This document shows, one piece after another, positions 691-56,212 of a stretch of DNA of 56,212 nucleotides. Location: the IMG/VR virus record IMGVR_UViG_3300050343_000186, positions 1 to 56,212 of that record. One strand, written 5' to 3'. Made by a program: the position numbers and the translations under genes. Origin of the DNA: a virus. The stretch's first letter is position 1. Each line of letters opens with the position of its first letter. A model generated the notes under the pieces. It saw only the letters and a list, made by a program, of their open reading frames with translations. It was not told the DNA's origin and did not search any database.

Positions 691-857
691 TGACGAAAGC
701 TGACGAAATAATGACGACTTTCTGACGAGAAGAATGAGTGATACTGTACATCCTGACGACTTGACGACTTTACCTCTTATTGTAGAGTTAGAATGAAAAA
801 TAATAATAGTAGTATATATATATATATATATAGGGAAAATGAGTCGTCATTCCGTCA
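691..857 (+). repeat. Iteron-like element 1 (TGACGA array, AT-rich core, inverted copies)
   Basis: TGACGA occurs at 691, 701, 712, 723, 754 and 762 (start spacings 10, 11, 11, 31, 8), that is, on one helical face. A TAATAATAGTAG then (TA)n tract and the box TATAGGGAAAA follow, then inverted copies TCGTCA at 844 and CCGTCA at 852. The same spacing recurs in the element at 47332. It fills most of the otherwise gene-free 625-911 gap upstream of groEL. It may be a replication origin, an operator array for the groEL operon, or both. Confidence 0.85.
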
Positions 858-911: not shown

Positions 912-2529
912 ATGAATGAATCAGGATACACTCCGAAGAACTTAAAGTTCGGTAAGGAGGGAAGAGACAAACTCATTAATGGTATCAAAACCATTTCAGG
1001 TGCAGTCAAGTCAACATTAGGACCGTCAGGTCAGACTGTACTCATCGAATCACCAAATCACACACACGGCATTACAGTAACCAAGGATGGTGTCACAGTA
1101 GCTAAGGCAGTTAGCTTAATTGACCCTGTAGAGAACTTGGCTGTTCGTATGATGAAGGAAGCAGCAGACCGAACGGCGTCATCAGCAGGTGATGGAACGA
1201 CAACAGCTATTGTACTGACTGAGGCTATGGTCTTAGAAGGTATGAAGGTGATTGACGATACAAATAAGACAGAGGTACTTCGTGATATGGTAAAGATAAC
1301 AGAGTATGTTGTCAAAGACTTGAAGCGTAAGTCTAAGAAGGTTACAAAGAAAAACCTCAAAGATGTGGCAACTATTTCTGCAAACAACGACCCGGAGTTA
1401 GGAAAGATAATAGCGGAGGTATATAAAGAGGTTGGAGAGAATGGTATAGTGACCGTAGATAGGTCGCAGACGTCTGAGACATACTATGAGTCCACTCGAG
1501 GTATAAAAGTGGATAGAGGGTACTCTAGTCCGTTGTTCATTAACGACCAAAAGAAGGATGAGTGTATCTTAGAGGATACATATGTATTAGTTAGTGATGC
1601 TGAGATAGCGAACATACTAAACATTGAGACCATACTTAAACCAATCATACAGGAGAACAAGAAGTTATTGATTATAGCACCTTGCTCTAGTAATGTGCTT
1701 AACACGTTAGCAGCGAATGTGATGAAGAGTAACTTGAAGGTATGTGTGGTGCAGCCACCTAACTTTGGTTACAAGCAGCACGAGCTGATGCAGGACATAG
1801 CTATCTCGGTAGGTGCGACATACTTCTCTGAGAAGACAGGTGATGACCTGAGTATTATGACGATGGCAGACCTAGGTCACGCAGCTAAGATTATTGCAGG
1901 TGACAAGTCAACTATTATCATTAAGGATGAGGACACGCATAACGAGGTGATTGATGAGAGGGTTGAGCAGCTATGGGAGCAGCATAAGAACGCAGCTAAC
2001 AAAGAGGCTAAGGAGTTTATACTATCTCGTATCGCATCACTAACAGGTGGTATAGGTGTGATATATGCAGGTGGCAAGACGGACCTTGAGCAGAAGGAGC
2101 TGTATGACAGGATTGATGATGCTGTCTGTGCAGTACGTTCAGCACTTGAGGAAGGTATAGTGACAGGAGGTGGTTAGCATTGTGGGAAATAAGTATTGAT
2201 GATTTGGATTGGGAAGATTCTTACAATTCGGATGCTGTTAAGATAATGGCAGAATGCATTAAAAGAACCACTTTAATCAGATTATAAGAAATGCAGGAGG
2301 CAACGTAGATGATATTGTGAAGCAAATGTTATATGGATATGATTGTAAAAACGATTACGACCATGGATACAATGCTAAGACAGGTGAGTTTGGTGATATG
2401 TACAAGATGGGTGTTATTGACCCATTGAAGGTAACTAAGAACGCACTACAGAATGCTGTATCTGTTGCGGTAACTATTCTATCCACTAACGCTATTATCA
2501 CAATGGCACGAAGCTACGAAGAGAAATGA
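912..2529 (+). CDS. groL: Phage chaperonin GroEL (Hsp60), interrupted by frameshifts
   Basis: Group I chaperonin, an ATP-driven folding ring. About 539 residues in all, close to the usual 540-550. The first 421 codons are continuous (912-2177): [10 protein letters not shown] phosphate loop, GDGTTT ATP motif at residues 93-98 and the equatorial RIDDAVCA with the catalytic-type Asp before EEGIVTGGG. The protein then continues in other frames through [30 protein letters not shown] and the conserved ALQNAVSVA, to 2529. At least three single-base shifts lie at about 2172, 2255 and 2275, most simply sequencing errors. There is no Gly-Gly-Met tail. It overlaps groES by ATGA. It probably folds phage capsid or tail proteins, alone or with host subunits. 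Confidence 0.95.
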
Positions 2530-5180: not shown

Positions 5181-5345
5181 ATGGCATTTGTAAATGTAAT
5201 AGCAATAGGAGTAGGAGCAGGTGGTAGTGAACCATCAGAATCATTTTTAATTGCTTATACCGTAAATGTAAACGGAGTATTAGAGTCTTCGGGCAATTTT
5301 GATGCCTATCAACCACTCACACAATTTAACATCCAAGTAGAATAA
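5181..5345 (+). CDS. Small hypothetical protein, 54 aa
   Basis: MAFVNVIAIGVGAGGSEPSE and IAYTVNVNGVLESSGNFDAY. It starts immediately after the previous stop and its TAA (5343-5345) overlaps the ATG of the fibre gene, so it is part of the tail-fibre unit. The sequence looks beta-rich and may be a fibre accessory protein; unassigned. Confidence 0.45.
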   Translation: MAFVNVIAIGVGAGGSEPSESFLIAYTVNVNGVLESSGNFDAYQPLTQFNIQVE

Positions 5346-7078
5346 TGGCAATAGAAATAAATTTAACCAACGTCCAAGCACAATTAATAAGCGGGACTAA
5401 TATAAAAACCATAAATAGTGAGAGTTTACTAGGAAGTGGTAATATAGAAATAAGCGGCGGTGGTGCAGTCGATAGCGTTAATGGTTTAACAGGTGTTGTA
5501 TTATTAGATACGGACGAAATATCTGAGGGTACTACTAATTTATATTTTACAGATAGCAGAGTATCGAACAACACAGATGTAACAGCAAACACAGCAAAGA
5601 GAAGCTATCCTAGTGCGGATGAGACAAAGTTGTCGGGAATAGAAGCAGGGGCTCAAGTAAATTCTGTTTTAAGTGTAAATGGTTTAACGGGAAATGTAAC
5701 GGTACAGGATACTTTAGTAAGCGGCACAAATATAAAAACCATAAATAGTCAAAGTTTATTAGGGAGTGGCAACATAGTAATAAGTGGTAGTGGTGCAGTT
5801 GATAGTGTTAATGGTGAAACCGGAGATGTAATTGTTCAAGCTACTTTGGTGAGTGCAGTTAATATTAAAACTATAAACGGAAATACTTTACTAGGTAGCG
5901 GAAATATAACAGTGGGTTCAGTTAATACTGTTAATGGTCAAACCGGGGATGTCGTGTTGAACGCAAACAATATTTCTGAAACGGCTGACAAATTATATAT
6001 GACTGCTGCTGAAAGAACCAATTTAAGCAATCAAAGTGGTACTAATACGGGAGACCAAGATTTAAGCGGTCTACAAGACACTTTGGTGAGCGGTACAAAC
6101 ATAAAGACCATAAATAGTCAAAGTCTATTAGGAAGTGGTGACATAACAATAAGCGGTGGTGCGGTTGATAGTGTTAACGGTCAAACCGGTGTTGTAGTTT
6201 TAGATACGGATGACATATCTCAAGGTAGTGCTAACCTATACTATCCAAGTGCAGATGCAACCAAAGTAAACTTTATAACTGTAAATCAAGCTATAAACCT
6301 AGATAATGTGCCTGAATTGGACGGCTTTCCTTCAGCCGGTGAAGCACTATATTGGGGGAGTAGTAACAAAATAAAAGCTGACCCGTTGGTACGATTTGAA
6401 GGTGGAGGGATACAAATAGGTGCGATTGGTAGTAGTTCATTAGCCTCACTTAGATATATTAGTAATAGTAGTGGCGGAGCTATTATATACGATACAACAA
6501 TATCAGGGATTAGCGAGGATTTTCTCCACGAATATACCGGGGGTGGCAATCTAATATTCGATAGTGTTGGAGGTATAGAGCTCAATGCCGTTAGTGTGAG
6601 TTCAGATGAATACGGAGCAGGCAATAAGTCTGCTGCTGACCTGAGCAAAACAGAAAGCGACTTTCTGCTAGGATTAGCTACAGATGGTACGTTTATAGAG
6701 GTAGATAAAGCAACTGTTGCTGTTATTCCTATAGGCATAGCTTGTTCTGATGAAACAACTGCGTTAACAACAGGTACTGCAAAGGCAACATTTAGGATGC
6801 CTTATGGTTTTGAGCTTACAGAGGTCCGAGCAAATGTCACAACTGCACCTACAGGTTCTTTGCTAACTGTAGATATCAACGAAAATGGAACTACAATATT
6901 AAGCACTAAATTAACTATTGATGCAGGTGAAGAAACATCTACAACTGCGGCTATACCTGTTGTAATAAGCGATACTACTTTAGCCGATGATGCTAAGATA
7001 ACAATAGATATTGACACTGTTGGAAGTACAGTCGCAGGAGCAGGGTTAAAAGTTTGGTTAATTGGTCGTAAAATATGA
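5345..7078 (+). CDS. Tail fibre protein with internal repeats, 577 aa
   Basis: A long fibrous protein built from two interleaved repeats: NIKTINxxxLLGSGxI, present four times, and xSVNGxTGxVxL or close variants, present five times, within the first roughly 300 residues. These low-complexity beta repeats are typical of trimeric phage fibres. The C-terminal domain (from about residue 470, TAKATFRMPYGFELTEVRAN to KVWLIGRKI) is a beta-sandwich-like block seen at the ends of many phage structural proteins. Host receptor binding is the likely role. It overlaps the next gene by four bases. Confidence 0.8.
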   Translation: MAIEINLTNVQAQLISGTNIKTINSESLLGSGNIEISGGGAVDSVNGLTGVVLLDTDEISEGTTNLYFTDSRVSNNTDVTANTAKRSYPSADETKLSGIEAGAQVNSVLSVNGLTGNVTVQDTLVSGTNIKTINSQSLLGSGNIVISGSGAVDSVNGETGDVIVQATLVSAVNIKTINGNTLLGSGNITVGSVNTVNGQTGDVVLNANNISETADKLYMTAAERTNLSNQSGTNTGDQDLSGLQDTLVSGTNIKTINSQSLLGSGDITISGGAVDSVNGQTGVVVLDTDDISQGSANLYYPSADATKVNFITVNQAINLDNVPELDGFPSAGEALYWGSSNKIKADPLVRFEGGGIQIGAIGSSSLASLRYISNSSGGAIIYDTTISGISEDFLHEYTGGGNLIFDSVGGIELNAVSVSSDEYGAGNKSAADLSKTESDFLLGLATDGTFIEVDKATVAVIPIGIACSDETTALTTGTAKATFRMPYGFELTEVRANVTTAPTGSLLTVDINENGTTILSTKLTIDAGEETSTTAAIPVVISDTTLADDAKITIDIDTVGSTVAGAGLKVWLIGRKI

Positions 7079-31019: not shown

Positions 31020-34000
31020 ATGGAAGAGCTGCAGAAGTTATTTAACGTATTAAAAAGAGAAGGTTACTACACAAAATCTTTTGAGGATTTTCAATCTAAA
31101 TACCAAGATGAAACATATAGAGATAAAGTTTTTAACGTAGTTTCTAGAGATGGATTTTACACAAAAAGTAAAGAAGAATTTTTATCTAAGTTTTCATTGG
31201 GTGAAGTAAAAAAAAAAGAAGAATCAGAGCCTTCTTTGGAGGAGGTCATTACGGAATCTACTACAGAGCAAGTTCCGGCAGAAAATGGTTCATCGGCATC
31301 TCAGCAAGATGAGAGAATATTTGACCCAATGGCTGTTGAGCCTGAAGTGGCACCTGCAACAGAGCAGCGAATAGCAGAGCCTTTTATACCTCAAGACCAA
31401 GTACAAATACTAGATGAAGCAACTCCAATTGGACCTTCTGAGTTCGACCCTGAAGAGTTTGTAGCACCTGAGCAGCCCTTAGTACAAGATGCATATCCGG
31501 GATTGTTTGAAGCGGAATCTGATTTGGTTGACAGAGTTGGAGATAAGTTAGCTAGAAAATATGATAGATTAGGGGAAGATGTAGAAGAGTTTATGCCTGA
31601 AATATACGCAGATGCTCTTGACGAGGCTAGAAAGGATAAAAAGTTTATTTCATCATATGACGCATTACCTGAAGAGTTAAAAGCTACAATAGAGCCGGGT
31701 CTAATTAGAGAGAATGGGGAAATAGTTGGGCTTGACCAATCATTAATACCAACGGAAAGTGTTAAGGAAATAGTTAGGCAATACGACAAGGATGAATTTG
31801 AAGACACCGGAGGTGTAATAGAAAATTTGGCAGGTGCTATAGAGAGTCAAAGGAAAGAAGACTTTTTTGTAAAATTAAAAAAAGCAGGTCAACTCCAAGA
31901 AGATATACTAAACAATAAGGTAAAAGTTGATGAGCTTAGAAAGCAGGGTAATAACTTATTAGCAGACCAATTATCTATACCTTTAAATGAAACAATAGAA
32001 GAATACAACAACTTAGTAAAAGAAGCAAATGATGATTCCATAATTATTAATTCTTTAGATATTATATCTGAAAATGAAGATATGTTATGCTATAGAGTCA
32101 GGCTTCTAAGAACCGCTGTATCGGTACACTTTCTGCCTACTGCATCATCTGCCCCAAAAAAGATTATTGCTACATTAGCACACGTAGCAAATAAAATAGG
32201 TTATAGCCCGGGGTTAGTTCCTAGCCTTCTAATGTATATGAAAATATTAGTGAGTCTGCTATGCAAGATGCATTAAAAATAGAGGATTTGGCAAGAGAAT
32301 CTTTTGGTCAAGATTATAGAGACAAAAAAGCAAACTTTGTAGGAGAGACTTTAGGTCAAATTGGCTTTGTCGTAGCTTCTACTGCACTTGGTGGGACTCC
32401 TGCTGCTCTTTCAGCAGGTTATACAATGTCCACAGGAGAGATGTACAGGGAAGCTATAAATAGTGGATTAAGTCATAATGATGCTATGAATCTTTCTGTG
32501 GTTTATGGAGCTATTTCAGCTCCATTAGAGAGGCTTCCTTTTAGAAATGCATTTAAAAAAGTAGGAGAAAGAACCGTTAGAAAAAAAATAATACAAGAAA
32601 TAATAAAAAAAGGAGGAAAAAATTTCACAAAAGAATTTGCAAAAGAGACTGTAAAATTATCTTTAAAACCTATATTAAAAGAAACATTAAAAGAAGCAGC
32701 AGAAGAGGGGTTTCAAGAAGGGGTTCAGTATTTATTAAGTAAAGGCTTAGCAGAAACATACAACTCTTTAAAAGATGAAGACAAGCCCGAGTTTTTAAAA
32801 GCAAAGTTAGGTTCAGACGAATTTATTGAAGAGCTTATACAAACTGTAGCACTAGGTTCAGTTGCGGGCTCTATTGGAAGCGTTTCATTGAACTTAGCGG
32901 GAGGAAATGTTTTTGTTGGTAGCGATTATAAAGCTATGGAGAATATGTTTACCGACCCAAATCAAATGGCTAAGATAGACCAACAGCTTGATTCTTATAG
33001 AAAAACAGGACAGATAAAAACAGATGAAGAGCTTCAAAGTGCTAAAGAGCAAGTTGGAATTGTTGCACAGGCATCATCAGAAGTTCAAAATGCAACAAAA
33101 AATAGTAAAATCTCCATTGGTCTAAAGAAACAACTGTTTAAACTTACATCGGAAAAAATATCTTTAGAAAAAGCAATAGAAGGTGTAAAAACTACTTCTT
33201 TGGTTTCTGATAAAAAACAAACGATACAGGACTTAGACCAAAAGATATCTGATATTGTTTCAGGTAAGGTAACTGAAAAGGATATTATAGCAGAGCAAGA
33301 AACAGCAACAGAAGAAGCTCCTGAAGTAAAAGTTGAAGAAGAGGTAACTGAAGAGGTTGCACCTGAAGAAGTTACTCTGTCTAAGAAGGTTGATAATATA
33401 TTTAATGAAACAAATCCTGAAGTAGCAGAAACATTATCAGACAATTTAGTTAGAAATAAATCTGCTGAATTTGAGCTTTCATCTATAGGTCAATCAATAG
33501 TAGACCAAGCAACAAAAGCTGCTGTTGCTATTCAGAGAGTAGCACCTAATGTTAGAGTGGTCCTCCACGATACAACTAAGGAGTATACTGATTTTGCGAA
33601 AGAGGGCTCTAGAGGTTCTTACAACCCTGCAACAAAAACAATACATATAGATTTATCAAAAGCTAATAAAAAAACCGTAGGACACGAGGCGTTCCATAGT
33701 ATATTATTCAATACGATAGGTACAGAAAAAGATATACAAGCCGCAACAGACGATATGTATAAGTCTGTTAAGCGTTCATTGGCTACTAGTCCTTTGATGA
33801 AAAGAAAGCTAACAAAGTTTTCTGAAAAATATTCTGACAACATACGAAGCGAGGAGGCATTATCTGAATTGTTTGGTATGCTATCAAGCGACTATAAGAA
33901 ACTAAGTGCCCCTGTTAAGATTAAGATTAAACAGTTTGTAAATAAAGTTGCAACTAAGTTTGGTTTAGGTGATATAATTAAATTATCAGAACAAGACCTA

Positions 34001-42306: not shown

Positions 42307-42561
42307 TTATTTTTCTACTTTTAATTCTCCAATCGGAAGCCCTAGGACTTCGTCATCTATTGAGTTTAATACTACGTTAAAGTTATGTACACTCCTCTGA
42401 TGTGCTTCGCTGCTCACATCTTCCATTTTCACCTGCACTTCCTCCGCAAATCTGTTAAGACCTCTCATAGACTTCTTGATTCCCTTCTCAGGGAGGTTAA
42501 TTTCATCCATAAGAGACAAGGCTCTGAGGGTTATTAAGTATAGTTCGTATTGTGGGCTCAT
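42307..42561 (-). CDS. Hypothetical helical protein, 84 aa
   Basis: YELYLITLRALSLMDEINLP and NRFAEEVQVKMEDVSSEAHQ. It overlaps the end of the DnaA-domain gene by four bases, so it is co-translated with it and may be a partner. No known domain. Confidence 0.5.
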   Translation of the reverse strand: MSPQYELYLITLRALSLMDEINLPEKGIKKSMRGLNRFAEEVQVKMEDVSSEAHQRSVHNFNVVLNSIDDEVLGLPIGELKVEK

Positions 42562-42968
42562 TGTCTAAGTTCCAAAATTTTACCTTCAATCTTTAATGCT
42601 AAGTCTGTATCCATAGGCAGCGTTTTACGAATAAATTCAAGTACTAATTCTATTGGGTCTCTCTCAGCAGTATCTAGTATTAAAGCTATATCTTTATAGT
42701 CTTGCTGCATTTTCTTTTCAATAGCCAAAAGGTCATTTATCTTTCTCACTGCGTGGATGACCGTAGAGTGGTCTTTATGACCTATGAACCTTCCAATAGA
42801 TTTGAGGCTAGCGTCCTTCACTCTTTTCCTCGATATGTAGCAGTACATCTGACGAGGCTCTGCCAAGTATCTATATCTTCTTTGACTTAAGAAGTCTTTT
42901 TTATCTAGTTTGTAATACCGACAAACTGTATCGGCAATCTCCTCTAATTTAATGTCTTGGTTGTTCAT
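42558..42968 (-). CDS. Stand-alone DnaA domain IV (DNA-binding) protein, 136 aa
   Basis: EEIADTVCRYYKLDKKDFLS, QRRYRYLAEPRQMYCYISRK, SLKSIGRFIGHKDHSTVIHA: an almost canonical C-terminal DnaA domain, with the signature GHKDHSTVIHA at residues 63-73 that contacts DnaA boxes. The AAA+ ATPase domain is absent, and a helical C-terminal tail follows. It could mark an origin, compete with host DnaA, or recruit it. It sits in the primase-helicase operon. Confidence 0.85.
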   Translation of the reverse strand: MNNQDIKLEEIADTVCRYYKLDKKDFLSQRRYRYLAEPRQMYCYISRKRVKDASLKSIGRFIGHKDHSTVIHAVRKINDLLAIEKKMQQDYKDIALILDTAERDPIELVLEFIRKTLPMDTDLALKIEGKILELRQ

Positions 42969-43529: not shown

Positions 43530-44963
43530 CTACAAATTTATCAAATCTTTCTTAAAGTGTTTTAATGTATAGTCCTTCTTATTAGATACAGCCTTATATA
43601 TCTTATCTTCAATACCACCTTTTGAAAATATCCAATACACGTCACTCTCTAATCTATCTTTAGTTGTCATTCTATCCCTGCTCTGCCAATAACTTGTAGC
43701 ACTAAAGTCTATATTGTAGTACACTAAAGCCTTGGCTTCTCTTAGACTTATACCTTCTCTACCTGACTGAATCTGTAGGGCTATGGTTTTATCTGTTGTA
43801 TTGAACTCATCTAACTCTGTGCATAGATTATCCCCGTAGACCTCTTTTAAAGCGTTGTACTCCTCTTTAAACTTGTAGAAGATACCAACCTTCACATCCC
43901 CAAAGTTATCGTGTATAAAGCCCGCTTTACTTAAGTCAAGTATTTTTGAGTTACCTGATTCAAACTTAACCGTTCCTGAGTATATCTGATGCAACTTAGT
44001 CATTAGCTTTACGCTAGTGTCTCCAAGTATTACTTCGTCCTTACCTTCAACTACCAAATCTTTTTTAAGTTTATTGGCTACTTTATATATAACATCATCC
44101 ATCTTCACATACAGCTTATGCTCACGGGTATTAACTTTGAAGCCCGCCTCTTTCTGTGAGTAGCTAATTGTATAGGGTTTCATTATATCAATGATACTCT
44201 GATTACCATTAGAATAATCTCTGATATTCAAACCATTTATCTTCTTCTCAATTACCCTAACATAATCATCACAAAACCTGTAAAAGTTTTTATATTTCTT
44301 AAATGGGTTGTTGGGTATACCATATACCTGATGATACATCTGACTGAATGATTCAGGAGTTGGTGTACCTGACATCAGTACCACATAAGGATTGTTTTTA
44401 GCTATCAGCTCACGCACCTGCTTAGAACGTTTACTTGGTTTAGGAAACGCACCCATACTATGTGACTCATCGCATATAATAAAGTCCCACATATCTTGTG
44501 GTAGCTTATGTATACTCTCGTAGTTCATAACCACTATTTTGTATTTAGGATTAAGCATTGCGTAGTCAGACTCGATTGTACTTATTGCCTTTTTTTTAGT
44601 CAAGAATAATACATTACCTACGCCCATCTGATTAGCTATGCCAAGACTTGTTAAAGTTTTTCCTGTACGGACTTCCATAGCTAAATATAAAAAACGTTTA
44701 TCTTTAAGAACACGTGCCCCCTTAGAGATGATAGTTCTTTGATAGTCTCTAAATTCAAACCCTCTATTTAAATGTCTATCCATACTCACTTCTTTTTTCA
44801 TTTTCACATTTAACAGCTTCCAATTAGTTCTATCCTTGTGAAGTATTTTTTTTCGGTTCATTAATCGAGAAAATAATACGTCCTTTTCATCCATATCCCC
44901 AAAAACAGTATCGCTTATTACTCTTCTGCCTTTTGATGCATATACCTCTATTAGTCCTTTCAT
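43530..44963 (-). CDS. SF2 (SNF2/DEAH-like) helicase, 477 aa
   Basis: FRDYQ (71-75) as Q-motif, VRTGKT (98-103) as Walker A, CDESHS (164-169) as Walker B / DEAH-like box and MSGTPTPE (197-204) as motif III. The second RecA domain shows ALQIQSGREGISLREAKALV and YYNIDFSATSYWQSRDRM (motifs V and VI). It probably remodels or unwinds phage DNA during replication. Overlaps the primase gene by four bases. Confidence 0.88.
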   Translation of the reverse strand: MKGLIEVYASKGRRVISDTVFGDMDEKDVLFSRLMNRKKILHKDRTNWKLLNVKMKKEVSMDRHLNRGFEFRDYQRTIISKGARVLKDKRFLYLAMEVRTGKTLTSLGIANQMGVGNVLFLTKKKAISTIESDYAMLNPKYKIVVMNYESIHKLPQDMWDFIICDESHSMGAFPKPSKRSKQVRELIAKNNPYVVLMSGTPTPESFSQMYHQVYGIPNNPFKKYKNFYRFCDDYVRVIEKKINGLNIRDYSNGNQSIIDIMKPYTISYSQKEAGFKVNTREHKLYVKMDDVIYKVANKLKKDLVVEGKDEVILGDTSVKLMTKLHQIYSGTVKFESGNSKILDLSKAGFIHDNFGDVKVGIFYKFKEEYNALKEVYGDNLCTELDEFNTTDKTIALQIQSGREGISLREAKALVYYNIDFSATSYWQSRDRMTTKDRLESDVYWIFSKGGIEDKIYKAVSNKKDYTLKHFKKDLINL

Positions 44964-47347
44964 CTGTTAATAATATACCATTTCCCAAGATTGTCTTTAC
45001 CTTGCTCTATATTGTCGTTACCCGTTGTGTATTTTGCATATGCTCTAATATAGCTATTAAACTTTGTTCGGCTTAATTTAATACTACCGGTCTTACCATA
45101 GTCAGGGTAATCATCGCAGAACTCAACATACAGCCTGTTAAGGTGTATTCTCTCTTCCGTAGGGAGCATATGGTGTCTCTCACCTGTCTTTACTCCACAC
45201 CACTCCGCAAAGTCTTCTGAAGTCTCTAATATGAATGCTTTGTATTTACCGTTTACAAGTTCACTCTCTATTAGACCTGTTCTCATATAGCTACTTAGGC
45301 AGTTTACCATATAGCTATCGAATAAGCACCATTCATCTGAATCCCAATCATTGAATAGATGTCTCTTGAACTCATCGAATGGAGTGTACTGCTTATTATA
45401 GTGTGGGTGTAATTCAATCTCAAACTTACGTCTCGCAAATGAATTACCCGTGCCTCGTATAGCATAGTTGGTTGTTATTGCAACCTTAGGTGAACGAGTG
45501 TATGGTATCTTGATTGCGTCCTTGTTTTTCTTCTCCAATGTAAGACCTTCAGTAATTACGCTGAACAATCTCTCGAAGTCAAAGTTGCGTTTTACATCAT
45601 CAAAGCATAGCAGTTGCGTATCTACAGATACGGTTTGATATGGGAATGACTTTTCAAAGTTGAATGATTTACCATCAATAACCACTAACTTTTTCATATG
45701 AGCCAATGCATTCATAAATATTCCTTTACCTGTGCCACCTTCAGGGTTCTCACTTGCTACCTCATCATTTAGTATTATTGCCGGACAAGATGAAAGGTTT
45801 TTATATCCGTGTAACATAAAACCAATTGTTGATTCTACGGTGTCTACTCTATCTTGACTACCACCACATATCCTTGATATGAATGTTCTGTAATCACAAT
45901 CGTAGTCTCGACACATCCTAAAGTTCCTATCTATAACGTGGTCTCTCCAAACATAACCATCCAAATCAAGATACTTGATTGTCTCAATATCATTTGTGGT
46001 TACCTTGACTGCACAATTTTCGTAATACAGGAATGACGTATCTTTTGTATCCATAATAAAGTGTATGTCAATAGTAGATAGCAATGTAAGGAAGTCTTCC
46101 TTGAATAAACTTGTTTTATTAGCATAGTGATTGTAAACCGAAAGGTCATCAATATCTAACAGATAGTTAAGAATGAAATCTTTTATCTCTTTGTCTGATG
46201 TATTGTCTACTAAATTCTCAATAACACGAACAAAAACAAAATTATTAGAACCTTCGGGTGAATACTTATAAAATCCATTTTCCTCTAGAAAATTCTTGAA
46301 TAGTATTGGTATATTTTTTATTATACCCTTATCGCTCTTAGACCAAAACTTTATATTAGTTCCCTCTTCCTCCACACGATTAATAACTAACTCAACATCA
46401 CATTCAGGATACGACTTATTGTTATTATCTAACTCCTCAATAATCTCTTTCTTAGATGCTCCATTCTTTAACTTTAGCCTGACTAAGTTGACAGCAGAAT
46501 CATCTTCATAGAACTTTGTCTTAAACTTATCTGTATTGTTGTAAGCACCATCTATAGTTGCTTGTATCTCTTTGATAGAAAAGTCTGTTTGTTCGTATTG
46601 GTTTAGTACATAAGATGCTAATGACTTATTAACACCGTACTCATTGAATGCCATCGCAAGTGTATATGCATTTTGGTTTCGAACACCCTCGTGCATTGGG
46701 AACTTTTTCTCCCACCACTTTACAAGTATCTCTACAATCTTATTCTCATCAGTGATTGGCAAGGTAGCTATCTTGGATGTTATATCAACCTCAGTATACT
46801 GCCTCTCCTTTATCTTATCGTACACCTCAGAATCTTCGTTGATGTGAATTAAGTTATCCCAAGACTCGTAGCACACCCGACTTACATTCTTTGATGTCTT
46901 ATCAAAGTATGGTGAGCCAAAATAATCCTCAAGTGAATTGAAATAATTTATGTGGTTATCTACATCATCAGGTATCTTAACCAATACCTTTAGACCATTA
47001 CCCGAAGGAGATACGAAAACAGAGTATACATACTTGTCTTTTGATATCTTATCCTTATGCTCCTTCATTATGGTTTTCTTCTCGTATGCATCGAAGTCCA
47101 AACAAATAAGACCACTATGCTTAACCAATGATTTGTCGTTTCTTTTATTAAATTTCCCACTAAAACATATAGCAGGTAGCTGCTGCTTTAGTTCTGCTTT
47201 TTTGTTTTTATCCTTCTCAGACCTTATTCTCTTTACTAGTTCTTTACTCTTACCGTCCTTGATTCTCTCAAGAACTACACCAACATTAACATTGAATGGT
47301 GTCTGTGTTTCTTTTATGTTTTTAAATATAGTGACGTTGTGTGACAT
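44960..47347 (-). CDS. Primase-helicase: BT4734-like N-domain plus D5/SF3-like ATPase, 795 aa
   Basis: The N-terminal domain (residues about 20-160: SGLICLDFD at 78-86, VSPSGNGLKVLVKIP at 112-126, SRVCYESWD) is the BT4734/VirE_N-like primase-associated domain typical of Bacteroidetes. A helical middle is followed by a D5/VapE-type ATPase: PEGGTGKGIFMNAL (Walker A near 536), LLCFDDVKR (Walker B), AITTNYAIRGTGNSFARRKF (sensor 1/Arg finger). Main initiator of phage replication. The start ATG (47347-47345) lies inside the second repeat of iteron element 2, so binding there could auto-regulate it. Confidence 0.9.
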   Translation of the reverse strand: MSHNVTIFKNIKETQTPFNVNVGVVLERIKDGKSKELVKRIRSEKDKNKKAELKQQLPAICFSGKFNKRNDKSLVKHSGLICLDFDAYEKKTIMKEHKDKISKDKYVYSVFVSPSGNGLKVLVKIPDDVDNHINYFNSLEDYFGSPYFDKTSKNVSRVCYESWDNLIHINEDSEVYDKIKERQYTEVDITSKIATLPITDENKIVEILVKWWEKKFPMHEGVRNQNAYTLAMAFNEYGVNKSLASYVLNQYEQTDFSIKEIQATIDGAYNNTDKFKTKFYEDDSAVNLVRLKLKNGASKKEIIEELDNNNKSYPECDVELVINRVEEEGTNIKFWSKSDKGIIKNIPILFKNFLEENGFYKYSPEGSNNFVFVRVIENLVDNTSDKEIKDFILNYLLDIDDLSVYNHYANKTSLFKEDFLTLLSTIDIHFIMDTKDTSFLYYENCAVKVTTNDIETIKYLDLDGYVWRDHVIDRNFRMCRDYDCDYRTFISRICGGSQDRVDTVESTIGFMLHGYKNLSSCPAIILNDEVASENPEGGTGKGIFMNALAHMKKLVVIDGKSFNFEKSFPYQTVSVDTQLLCFDDVKRNFDFERLFSVITEGLTLEKKNKDAIKIPYTRSPKVAITTNYAIRGTGNSFARRKFEIELHPHYNKQYTPFDEFKRHLFNDWDSDEWCLFDSYMVNCLSSYMRTGLIESELVNGKYKAFILETSEDFAEWCGVKTGERHHMLPTEERIHLNRLYVEFCDDYPDYGKTGSIKLSRTKFNSYIRAYAKYTTGNDNIEQGKDNLGKWYIINR

Positions 47348-47488
47348 ATTGGTGACCGTTTTGTGACGTTTAAAATGTTGATTTTCAAATAGTTTGACCG
47401 TTTGACCGTTTTTTCCCTATTATAAATAAAAAAAAATATAATATATATAGTAGTAGTAGTAGTAGTAGTATAGGAAAAAAAATGGTCA
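47332..47488 (+). repeat. Iteron-like element 2 (TGAC array overlapping primase start)
   Basis: TGAC-core repeats start at 47332 (TGACGT), 47342 (TGACAT), 47353 (TGACCG), 47364 (TGACGT), 47395 and 47403 (both TGACCG): spacings 10, 11, 11, 31, 8. Then come TTTTTTCCCTAT, an AT-rich tract with (AGT)7, the box TATAGGAAAA and an inverted copy TGGTCA at 47483. Same geometry and same + strand orientation as element 1 (691-857). It fills most of the 47348-47550 gap between two leftward operons. A likely replication origin and/or operator for the primase operon. Confidence 0.87.
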
Positions 47489-47501: not shown

Positions 47502-47527
47502 ATAAAAGGGAGCTGAAACAACTCCCT
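47502..47527 (-). terminator. Intrinsic terminator of the early operon
   Basis: On the - strand GGGAGTT and AGCTCCC form a 7-bp stem with loop GTTTC, followed by TTTTATTT. It lies after the SSB-like gene and just before iteron element 2. Confidence 0.75.
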
Positions 47528-47550: not shown

Positions 47551-47823
47551 TTAAAATGGCAAATTTTCCTCAGTAGCAGTGACCGTTTCTATAACATCAC
47601 TTTTTTCCTTTGGTTTTGTTGGCTGCCAAGTGTCGAGTTGGCAATAATATTTACCACCTTTACTCTGTTTAATGTCTAGATTTACCCATCCATTCTTTTG
47701 ATTTGCTTGAAGAAATGCAATTGCTTCTTCTACTTTGATTGATTGTGACCCAACAACAAAGTCAGGTGCGTTTTCTTTTCTCTTGAAGATGAATCCATCT
47801 GCAAAAATTGTCTCGTTTGACAT
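47551..47823 (-). CDS. SSB-like protein with acidic C-terminal tip, 90 aa
   Basis: IFADGFIFKRKENAPDFVVG, SIKVEEAIAFLQANQKNGWV, and GGKYYCQLDTWQP with a tail ending EENLPF. The acidic-Pro-Phe tip is the interaction tail of single-stranded DNA-binding proteins, and the beta-rich body suits a small OB fold. It probably coats ssDNA and recruits recombination or replication partners. Last gene of the early operon, next to the exonuclease and annealing genes. Confidence 0.65.
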   Translation of the reverse strand: MSNETIFADGFIFKRKENAPDFVVGSQSIKVEEAIAFLQANQKNGWVNLDIKQSKGGKYYCQLDTWQPTKPKEKSDVIETVTATEENLPF

Positions 47824-47898: not shown

Positions 47899-48630
47899 TT
47901 AAATTAACTCCTCCTCTATATAGTAGTCGTAAATGCTTTCCTTTGCGTTTTCTGCAAAATACTTTTTGTATACCTCTACTGCTCTCTCAACCTTTTCTTC
48001 CCCACGTTCAAGGAACTCTGTAGTTGGTCTATATATACCCATCCTACCTGTTAATTTCTCTATTGCGTAGAATACTAATGGCTTACCGAACAATGTTTGG
48101 TATATGTATGCTTGACTGTCGTAGTTGTATCTCCTTGCACTCCACTTGAAGTCATCTATGTTAGATGTGGTCTTCAAATCTATTATCATATCAGGGTGTA
48201 TAATGTCTGCTTTACCCTTCCACATATGACCGCATATCTTTCCAATAGCAGGTACTTCATACTCGTTACCCTCGTTTCTGATATCCTCAAAGAATGTGTA
48301 ATTGCTTAACATCCTTTTAACTAAGCCTTGGATATCTATAACCTCACTCTCAAGTAACACATAAGGTACGTTATTATCTTGGCAATACTGCTTGTATACT
48401 TTTGTAGTCCTCGTACTCGCCTGCACATACTTAACATCCTCTGCTTTACTTGGCTCAAGTATTAACTGATGGAAGTATCTACCCTTAGCAAAGTTTTGAT
48501 TGTCGGGTTGCGATACACCAAACTTACTCGGGTCTTTCAGTAGCGTACCTATATCTGAATTAGATAGGTACTGCTTACCGAAGTCACCATAGTAGTTGGC
48601 ATCATCTCTTAACATTTCAACTATATCCAT
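47899..48630 (-). CDS. PD-(D/E)XK exonuclease (RecE/RecB-like), 243 aa
   Basis: A motif series: AKGRYFHQLILEP (48-60), WKGKADIIHPDMIIDLKTTS (137-156, with Asp142, Asp151 and Lys153 as core) and DSQAYIYQTL (171-180). This is the PDDEXK_1-type phage exonuclease used with single-strand annealing proteins. It starts at the stop of the annealing gene (one-base overlap), supporting a functional pair for recombination and concatemer formation. Confidence 0.85.
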   Translation of the reverse strand: MDIVEMLRDDANYYGDFGKQYLSNSDIGTLLKDPSKFGVSQPDNQNFAKGRYFHQLILEPSKAEDVKYVQASTRTTKVYKQYCQDNNVPYVLLESEVIDIQGLVKRMLSNYTFFEDIRNEGNEYEVPAIGKICGHMWKGKADIIHPDMIIDLKTTSNIDDFKWSARRYNYDSQAYIYQTLFGKPLVFYAIEKLTGRMGIYRPTTEFLERGEEKVERAVEVYKKYFAENAKESIYDYYIEEELI

Positions 48631-49217
48631 TACTTAAGTAGCTTTTGAAGTTCTTTCTTGGTAGTTGCATTGATGGTATACTTCTTAGATAGATTGACAA
48701 CAATCTCATCTATATTTAAGCTACCCTTGTTCTGCAATACATAACGCTTTACTTTCTCCCAATTAGAATCACCAATCTTCAAGCCCATCTTCTTAACAGG
48801 CTCTGCTTTGGTTATCATCTCGGGAACATCCTCACCCTTCCATAGTGACAGACCCAATCCGTGCATTGCAATAGCCTTAGCAGTTGAACGCTGAATTGTT
48901 TTGTTTACATCCATAGATGTAATGTCATCTGCTGAAATAGCTTTGTTTCGAAAGTCCATAATGGGCAGGTAATCTATATGCTCTATATCTTCAATAGAGA
49001 TACCAACCTTCACCCAACAACTCTTACCATCAGAGAAGTAGTTCCACCCCGTTGCAGGGTCTTCGTATACAATACGTTGTGCTAATGGATATTGTTGTTT
49101 AAGCATATGCCACGCATTTGCCCACGATAAGTAATCCATTCTACCTTTTCTTTCTACCTTGTCCTTTACGCTTATAGCTGACAATACTTCATAACTTTTC
49201 TTACTTTGTTTGGTCAT
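48630..49217 (-). CDS. DUF1071/Sak-type single-strand annealing protein, 195 aa
   Basis: RKGRMDYLSWANAWHMLKQQ, SCWVKVGISIEDIEHIDYLP, and MDFRNKAISADDITSMDVNK with TIQRSTAKAIAMHGLGLSLW: the conserved core of DUF1071-type phage recombinases (YLSWANAW and AKAIAMHGLGL). With the exonuclease at 47899 it forms a Red/RecET-like pair. A C-terminal helical extension lies from residue 150. Intact. Confidence 0.82.
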   Translation of the reverse strand: MTKQSKKSYEVLSAISVKDKVERKGRMDYLSWANAWHMLKQQYPLAQRIVYEDPATGWNYFSDGKSCWVKVGISIEDIEHIDYLPIMDFRNKAISADDITSMDVNKTIQRSTAKAIAMHGLGLSLWKGEDVPEMITKAEPVKKMGLKIGDSNWEKVKRYVLQNKGSLNIDEIVVNLSKKYTINATTKKELQKLLK

Positions 49218-49599
49218 TTGTTTTTTTGTTTATTTTGTTGTATTGCGACATCAAAGATACCCTTGTTGCCTTTAGTTGATTGATTAACTTTTCGTTACGC
49301 TTACCATTAACTTCGTCTCGAATACTCTTCTCGACTTTGTCTAGTTTTGAACGATAGTTCGACAAAGTTACTGCATACACTCCATATCTCCAACCCTTTT
49401 CTTTAAATGTATTAAATAAGTTAGATGTTAGTTTTTGGTAATATCTCTTACTTGTGTTTAGTAAATCAACCTCGTGCGTGTAGTCATCTTTAATAATCTT
49501 AACATCTAATAGACTAACAGATTGGTATCCGTTCTGTATTATTTTAGCTGACTTCTTATCGTTAAACGCTTGGTTGAATATTTCGTCTAAACTGAACAT
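49201..49599 (-). CDS. Hypothetical protein upstream of annealing gene, 132 aa
   Basis: FSLDEIFNQAFNDKKSAKII, KGWRYGVYAVTLSNYRSKLD and a basic coiled-coil C-terminus (KLINQLKATRVSLMSQYNKI). It overlaps both neighbours (17 and 13 bases). No known domain; part of the recombination gene block. Confidence 0.5.
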   Translation of the reverse strand: MFSLDEIFNQAFNDKKSAKIIQNGYQSVSLLDVKIIKDDYTHEVDLLNTSKRYYQKLTSNLFNTFKEKGWRYGVYAVTLSNYRSKLDKVEKSIRDEVNGKRNEKLINQLKATRVSLMSQYNKINKKTNDQTK

Positions 49600-49877
49600 A
49601 TCTTTTGTTGTAGCTTTATGTAATACCTGTCTTCTGTGTTGCTCATTCTTGTTATTCCGTGAATGATTGTTGAATGACCTATATCATATCCATTGTCTCT
49701 CATCATTCTAACGATTGTACTTATCTTAAAGTCTCCATCAAAAATACAAGTCCAATAAAGCATCTGTCTTGCATCTACAACCTCTCGTTCTTTGGTGTTC
49801 GTAAATAATAATTCTCTTGAGATACTAAACTCTTTTAGTATCTTCCTTACGTATGTGTTAAACTGTTTTTTTTTCAT
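49587..49877 (-). CDS. Second DnaA domain IV-like protein, 96 aa
   Basis: RKILKEFSISRELLFTNTKE, VVDARQMLYWTCIFDG, KISTIVRMMRDNGYDIGHST with IIHGITRM. The helix order and the GHSTIIHG signature (67-74) mirror the DnaA DNA-binding domain (GHxDHSTVIHA in the protein at 42558), but the loop Asp-His pair is reduced. A shorter, divergent paralogue in the early operon. It may bind a different site set from the first copy. Confidence 0.7.
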   Translation of the reverse strand: MKKKQFNTYVRKILKEFSISRELLFTNTKEREVVDARQMLYWTCIFDGDFKISTIVRMMRDNGYDIGHSTIIHGITRMSNTEDRYYIKLQQKICSV

Positions 49878-50361: not shown

Positions 50362-50381
50362 TATTTCTTTAATTAAAAATA

Positions 50382-55950: not shown

Positions 55951-56212
55951 TCTGTCTCTTATCGTCTGTTTTACTTTTCAGATAATGGAGCGAGCCGCCA
56001 AGAGTTCGCCGAAGGATGGTGAGGGTGCTATATACGTCAAACGTGGACAGCCACCACAGCTACCACCACCGCTGTGACCACAGCCACCACAACAGCCACC
56101 ACCGCTAGGCAAAAAGGCTAAAAAAACGGACTGCAACGATTGAAACGACCACCCCACCCCCCAAAAAAAAAATTCGTTTTCCTTTTCCATAGTGTTGCGT
56201 CATACATACATA
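55951..56212. repeat. Direct terminal repeat, right copy
   Basis: The second copy of positions 1-262, with a few substitutions and one extra C. The window ends where the match ends, so the repeat is truly terminal here. Confidence 0.9.
55985..56143 (+). other. Possible small proline-rich ORF with internal TGA (right repeat copy)
   Basis: The counterpart of 35-193: MERAAKSSPKDGEG, then a proline-rich part, TGA, and a second open part ending GKKAKKTDCND. Differences from the left copy change three or four codons in the proline-rich part but keep the frame. Low confidence as a gene. Confidence 0.2.

Follow-up and report, generated by a model that had tools for sequence, protein, structure and literature searches.

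The DNA analysed here, referred to as the window, is the whole of a 56,212-nucleotide virus record (IMG/VR IMGVR_UViG_3300050343_000186). The sequence at positions 1–262 returns at 55951–56212 with about 8 differences, and the contig therefore closes on itself as a circular map. We read this imperfect terminal redundancy as circular closure, with the mismatches owed to strain variation or an assembly error, and not as a perfect terminal repeat. Two iteron-bearing elements, E1 and E2, are found on this map (Table 1). E1 is preceded by short ORFs and followed by a groEL-like gene, and E2 occupies the boundary between a primase-helicase gene and an SSB-like ORF, with its first two A iterons falling inside codons 1–6 of the primase-helicase. 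The exonuclease and the Sak annealing protein are encoded upstream on the same strand as the SSB-like ORF, for which no Pfam match was found, and the primase. D1 and D2 sit on either side of the primase gene. The window groEL ORF, at 421 aa, looks truncated relative to the 526–581 aa of relatives and to the 539-aa open frame of a 96% identical copy in contig G026. A 16-bp palindrome, GTGTACTATAGTACAC, with T/A-run flanks recurs at 50378, 52817, 54186 and 54511 (one copy mismatched), at four gene boundaries, each of them to the right of E2 within the early region, and is operator- or terminator-like. The ORF at 5345–7078 contains diverged internal repeats of about 95–120 bp at 5384–6247 and probably encodes a structural or fibre-like protein.

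Table 1. Coordinates of the two elements, their parts and the surrounding genes in the window.
Feature	Position	Strand	Remark
E1, whole origin-like element upstream of groEL	691..857	+	conserved upstream of groEL in relatives
E1 A iterons, TGACGA at 691, 701, 712, 723	691..728	+	steps 10-11-11 bp
E1 spacer, diverged M-box GAGTGATACTGTACATCC	733..753	+	equivalent of family box TAACTTATTGATTATYARTA
E1 B pair, TGACGACT TGACGACT	754..769	+	tandem 8-bp units
E1 AT-rich stretch, (TA)n and TATAGGGAAAA box	783..840		84.5% AT; presumed unwinding element
E1 inverted iterons, GTCA at 846-849 and 854-857	844..857	-	read directly
groEL-like chaperonin gene downstream of E1	912..2177	+	ORF shorter than in relatives
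D1, stand-alone DnaA domain-IV protein	42558..42968	-	136 aa
Primase-helicase, proposed initiator	44960..47347	-	795 residues; BT4734-like AEP primase, weak PriCT-1, DUF5906/SF3-like helicase
Primase-helicase residues 700-795	44963..45250	-	predicted winged-helix origin-binding domain; co-varies with E1 and E2 cores
E2, whole origin-like element, primase-helicase start to SSB-like gene	47332..47488	+	same place in relatives
E2 A iterons, TGAC at 47332, 47342, 47353, 47364	47332..47369	+	steps 10-11-11 bp
E2 spacer with M-box ATGTTGATTTTCAAATAGTT	47373..47394	+	IHF-like
E2 B pair, TGACCGTT TGACCGTT	47395..47410	+	tandem 8-bp units
E2 AT-rich stretch, TAG repeat and TATAGGAAA box	47413..47483		presumed unwinding element
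E2 inverted iteron GGTCA (GTCA part 47485-47488)	47484..47488	-	read directly
Terminator-like hairpin, downstream of SSB-like gene	47507..47527	-	borders E2
SSB-like ORF, acidic C-terminal tail EENLPF	47551..47823	-	90 aa; assigned from position and tail
Exonuclease, DUF3799	47899..48630	-	exonuclease VIII-like
Sak-type single-strand annealing protein	48630..49217	-	
D2, stand-alone DnaA domain-IV-like protein	49587..49877	-	96 aa; below Pfam cut-off

An earlier note on this DNA had described two six-site arrays with equal steps of 10-11-11-31-8 bp, and we find both exactly where it placed them. When TGAC is required at offsets 0-10-21-32-63-71, the 56-kb window contains two matches, both on the plus strand and without mismatches. 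The same pattern is absent from 100 dinucleotide shuffles of the window even with 3 mismatches allowed, so the equal spacing is not a common product of chance, which would have weakened the note's proposal, and the reversed control pattern has no match. Moreover, a scan of the whole window for this geometry with a free core word returned E1 and E2 as the sole places. Their reported separation of 46.6 kb holds as a linear distance but not on the circular map, where the short arc from E2 to E1 is 9,309 bp; across five genomes this arc measures 9.3–14.4 kb. A nucleotide search of phages with E1 gave low-complexity matches only, an Rfam search found no RNA in the window, and we found no description of these elements in the open-licence literature.

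Relatives of the primase-helicase are found in at least 562 viral contigs by one alignment-based scan, the contigs being metagenomic, uncultured and in some cases partial; another primase scan gave 44 loci, and two more scans added sequences. Nearly all sampled loci have the same organisation upstream of the primase start, built on other core words (TATGTCG, TATGTTG, TGTTA, GTGCTC and TGACG are found in these regions). Two loci, G018 and G023, have a primase upstream region without the element, and L128 and L161 are further exceptions to the conserved E2 organisation. The second element, E1, is likewise seen upstream of groEL in the same contigs, and nearly every genome sampled retains both elements; in one contig (G007, 49060–49640) a SET-domain-like gene, its name guessed from sequence, lies between E1 and groEL. 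The architecture is thus present in close and distant relatives, where its absence would have weakened the earlier proposal, and the spacing-aware TGAC search proposed there finds the strict pattern in two other contigs, one with E2 (primase 88% identical) and one with E1 (groEL 96% identical). A strict whole-genome element finder proved specific, yet it missed several known elements. The elemo and Panino phages were considered as cultured relatives for testing and set aside, their replication module being different.

In the sampled members of the family the parts follow one order: A iterons spaced by ~11 bp, an M-box near TAACTTATTGATTATYARTA, the B pair, an AT-rich stretch with (TA)n and a TAGGG-type box, and one or two inverted iterons. 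The tandem B step is 9 bp in 82 of 87 cases and 8 bp in the other 5, the window among the latter, and the two inverted iterons of the window E1 repeat the 8-bp step of its B pair. The M-box matches the IHF consensus in 34 of 92 E2 elements versus 3 in shuffles, and the diverged variant of the window E1 recurs identically in the relative L112. The AT-rich stretch of the window E2 is 80% AT over 47413–47487. Of the two tail features that the earlier note had singled out, the TATAGG(G)AAA box is common in relatives, a (T)ATAGGG-type box occurring in 27 of 33 E1 and 57 of 92 E2 elements, but the TAG microsatellite is lineage-specific, with three or more TAG units in 10 of 92 E2 and 2 of 33 E1 elements. 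The inverted copy on the far side was correctly noted for both elements, E1 having two inverted iterons and E2 one. Neither E1 nor E2 is systematically degenerate in relatives, and both possess the full set of parts.

The conservation of spacing, exact in the window, is not universal among relatives. The distance from the last A iteron to the first B unit agrees within 1 bp between E1 and E2 in 13 of 24 genomes and is off by about one or two helical turns in the rest. Over the family these distances cluster at 30–31, 41 and 52–53 bp, which we read as a helical register, although the clustering could partly reflect the 11-bp A lattice when the last A iteron decays. That one element arose from the other by a recent duplication was rejected, since the spacers differ and each element follows its own position in relatives.

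The iteron core varies from genome to genome (TGTCG, TGTTA, TGACG, TGCTC) and is common to E1 and E2 within one. Among 39 genomes in which both regions are available, the iteron words of E1 and E2 have a mean cosine of 0.66 within a genome versus 0.47 when permuted (p=5e-5), and the B core is identical in the two elements in 29 of the 39, against 21 expected (p=1e-4). About six E1 elements in this set were placed wrongly by the automatic finder, an error that should weaken the likeness test and not favour it; in three of the affected genomes (G031, G036, G044) the element tail is visible upstream of an inserted gene. We find no support for the suggestion that each element has its own reader, the two being related: in most genomes E1 and E2 share one core and, as described below, the cores of both track a single domain of a single protein, which makes one reader for both the simpler account.

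That protein, the primase-helicase, combines a primase and an SF3/D5-like helicase in one chain (Pfam BT4734-like_N, weak PriCT-1 and DUF5906), and its GGTGKG Walker A, FDD Walker B and TTN motifs are visible and conserved. AlphaFold predicts residues 652–795 with a pLDDT of 89 as an N-terminal helix followed by a winged helix (700–795) of the order helix-strand-helix-helix-wing. The same fold recurs in the full-length model, which has a pLDDT of 73 and is weak in 554–639. With the full-length model, Foldseek retrieves AsfvPrimPol (3e-8) and the SaPI5 primase-helicase (4e-6); with the isolated domain it finds no match in the PDB at E<0.001. The structural neighbours of 700–795 are winged helices generally, the P4 origin-binding domain (1KA8, Z 4.8) being tied with many others, and a PDB sequence search with primase profiles returned nothing useful and no match to the P4 origin-binding domain.

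To relate this domain to the iterons, we compared iteron distance with protein distance by partial Mantel analysis, controlling for the rest of the primase. For E2 iterons in 69 genomes the partial correlation is 0.34 for residues 661–795 and 0.37 for 700–795 (p=0.001), with no significant association for other primase segments; shared ancestry is not fully removed by this procedure and can inflate such values. With 92 distinct genomes the values are 0.31 and 0.36 (p=0.001), and the first primase segment, whose first codons overlap E2, gives 0.095 (p=0.04). A sliding window peaks at 701–796 (0.37), and no window clear of that end exceeds 0.13. E1 iterons (n=33) follow the same region, with 0.25 for 661–795 (p=0.0065) and 0.29 for 700–795 (p=0.0035), and are not significantly associated with primase segments before 661. 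Because E1 is far from the primase gene, gene linkage is a poor explanation for this association. The primase-helicase, already named in the earlier note as a candidate binder, is thus the best candidate reader by its co-variation with both elements.

The strongest co-varying residues, 736, 762 and 789, are located in the helices and wing of the winged helix. At position 789, in the wing, Arg is present in 45 of 45 TGTC-type genomes and Lys in 7 of 16 TGTT-type and 4 of 6 TGAC-type genomes; residue 736 is Lys in 44 of 45 TGTC-type genomes. A tree-aware ranking places 736 first and 762 third among 315 columns on the basis of few informative independent pairs, and in a stricter but underpowered tree-based single-residue test none is significant, 736 and 789 pointing in the expected direction with 2–4 informative pairs. 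Column-wise mutual information computed without tree control had indicated the same domain; since it is confounded by clade, it was replaced by partial Mantel analysis and independent pairs.

Taken together, these comparisons make it likely that E1 and E2 are two origin-type sites read by one phage primase-helicase through its C-terminal winged helix, and of the options offered in the earlier note, whose overall interpretation is partly supported, paired origins is the best supported. Binding, melting, firing and a division of labour between E1 and E2 we infer from sequence as follows. The winged-helix domain would bind the A iterons, which are one helical turn apart and therefore on one DNA face, together with the tandem B pair, and a bend at the IHF-like M-box would join A and B. 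On the inverted iteron or iterons beyond the AT-rich stretch a second, oppositely oriented assembly would form. The AT-rich stretch would melt, the SF3-type helicase would load onto each strand and the fused AEP domain would prime; as the helicase would load itself and priming would be supplied by the fused domain, a separate loader would be unnecessary. The overlap of E2 with the start of the initiator gene may add autoregulation. The presence of two sites on a circle, and of exonuclease, annealing and SSB-like genes next to E2, makes plausible a scheme like that of SPP1, in which one site would start theta replication and the other would act as a second origin or as a fork barrier leading to concatemers.

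The replication signals bear on whether both sites are origins. In the unrotated profiles of five genomes GC skew has its minimum no more than about 1 kb from E1, which is consistent with, but not proof of, an E1 origin because transcription diverges there too; rotated minima at E1 were discarded, being partly forced by the rotation. Of the two elements, E1 alone coincides with a switch of GC skew in the skew check suggested in the earlier note, third-codon skew does not flip at E2, and E2 may for that reason not be a bidirectional origin. It is accordingly possible, if on balance doubtful, that one element is the true origin and the other an accessory site for the same protein, serving as a looping enhancer or as a fork barrier leading to concatemers. 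In phage P4, which has two cis regions, ori and crr, crr is an enhancer-type accessory site held by looping. The second origin of SPP1 (oriR) has been proposed as a barrier (PMC3485210), and the adjacency of the exonuclease and the Sak annealing protein to E2 would suit such a role. Both elements, however, have all the parts, including the AT-rich stretch and inverted iteron, with no systematic decay of either, which favours two origin-type sites.

Both sites also lie upstream of genes, E2 overlapping the primase start and E1 preceding the groEL promoter region, as would be expected if they were operator arrays for the primase and groEL operons bound by a transcription regulator. We consider this improbable: the orientation of the element relative to its downstream gene is opposite at the two places, the co-varying protein is the primase-helicase and not a regulator, and the AT-rich stretch, inverted iterons and IHF-like box exceed what an operator needs. 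Autoregulation could nevertheless coexist with an origin role.

The DnaA-domain proteins offer another candidate reader. D1 and/or D2, both without an AAA+ domain, are detected in the great majority of loci, and the common B word TGTCGATAA is one base off the reverse complement of the DnaA box TTATCCACA, which would fit D1 and D2 reading the iterons as diverged DnaA boxes and recruiting the primase-helicase. With the A iterons D2 shows a weak association (0.27, p=0.007); for D1 the values (0.07–0.11) are not significant, and neither protein follows the B pair. D1 and D2 were therefore rejected as the main readers. Moreover, close TGAC-type relatives with the same iterons differ in the recognition helix of D2, and the window iterons are no longer DnaA-box-like. 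On this evidence recognition by D1 and D2 is unlikely, while the D2–A iteron association leaves room for a second reader that may act beside the primase-helicase. DnaA boxes with DnaA-trios were likewise discarded as the basis of the elements: there is no canonical box (TTWTNCACA) near E1 or E2, the single window copy being at 31155, and TAG repeats are not conserved. Canonical boxes are depleted overall, with 1 in the window versus 8.6 expected and 28 in six genomes versus 54.5 expected. Finally, a function in partition, packaging or site-specific recombination instead of replication, which two directly repeated sites flanking a 9–14 kb early region might suggest, is very improbable given that the primase-helicase is the only protein found to track the elements in a comparison that covered the primase-helicase, D1 and D2.

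The preferred reading, two origin-type sites with one primase-helicase as their reader, has partial counterparts in known systems. SaPI Rep recognises an iteron origin beside its gene by means of its C-terminal domain, as does Cch2 in vitro (PMC7581432). The phage system resembles SaPI Rep and SCCmec Cch2, to judge from sequence, in having an initiator helicase, short iterons, a C-terminal domain as the putative reader and an origin-type site beside the gene, and differs from them in belonging to a ~56–65 kb phage with a BT4734-like AEP primase, in having two origin-type sites, one of them 9–14 kb from the initiator gene, and in placing the gene-proximal site upstream where theirs is downstream. 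In SPP1, oriL and oriR consist of direct repeats and AT-rich DNA, are about 12–13 kb apart on the circular map and share one binding protein, and the change to concatemers involves an exonuclease, an annealing protein and SSB (PMC6316719, PMC3485210). The window and its relatives share with SPP1 two sites of repeats and AT-rich DNA on a circle (here 9.3–14.4 kb apart), one of them at the initiator gene, both carrying the repeat of one candidate binder (shared core, p=5e-5), and exonuclease, annealing protein and SSB-like genes in the early region. Unlike SPP1, which uses gp38, a loader and a DnaB-type helicase, they unite primase, helicase and proposed origin binding in one unrelated protein, and inverted iterons and an IHF-like box belong to the element.

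The P4 alpha protein recognises repeats through a winged helix (PMC4234260). Like the protein described here, it is a fused primase-helicase whose winged helix (predicted in our case) is C-terminal, and it is served by two cis regions; it differs in its TOPRIM-type primase and in serving a small satellite, and we detected no sequence relation. C-terminal winged helices of AEP proteins have been suggested as origin recognisers (PMC5862659). With the basal unwinding system of oriC (PMC8287927) the elements share the succession of boxes, a brief G-rich step and AT-rich DNA built partly of trinucleotides, as well as the resemblance of the common B word to a DnaA box, and they differ from oriC in the lack of a canonical DnaA box nearby, the rarity of TAG repeats and the tracking of the iterons by the primase-helicase. 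By analogy, an initiator of the SaPI/P4 type would here operate on a two-site layout of the SPP1 type, and we file the system under neither.

The iteron type has changed at least 15–18 times on the primase tree. We tentatively suggest, with less confidence than we place in the two sites and their reader, that the winged helix has been retargeted repeatedly, with two unlinked origins 9–14 kb apart following in register and D1 and D2 as additional parts of the origin complex. With a single origin in most replicons, joint changes of specificity in initiator and origin are difficult to follow. In this large family each genome has a pair of origin-type sites, one member of which is remote from the initiator gene, and dozens of natural core variants occur, so that linkage can be separated from recognition and candidate residues are indicated. 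The anatomy of the element, in turn, provides a sequence rule for locating origins in hundreds of metagenomic phages, and the concerted change of both repeats with the winged helix makes initiator–origin co-evolution directly testable.
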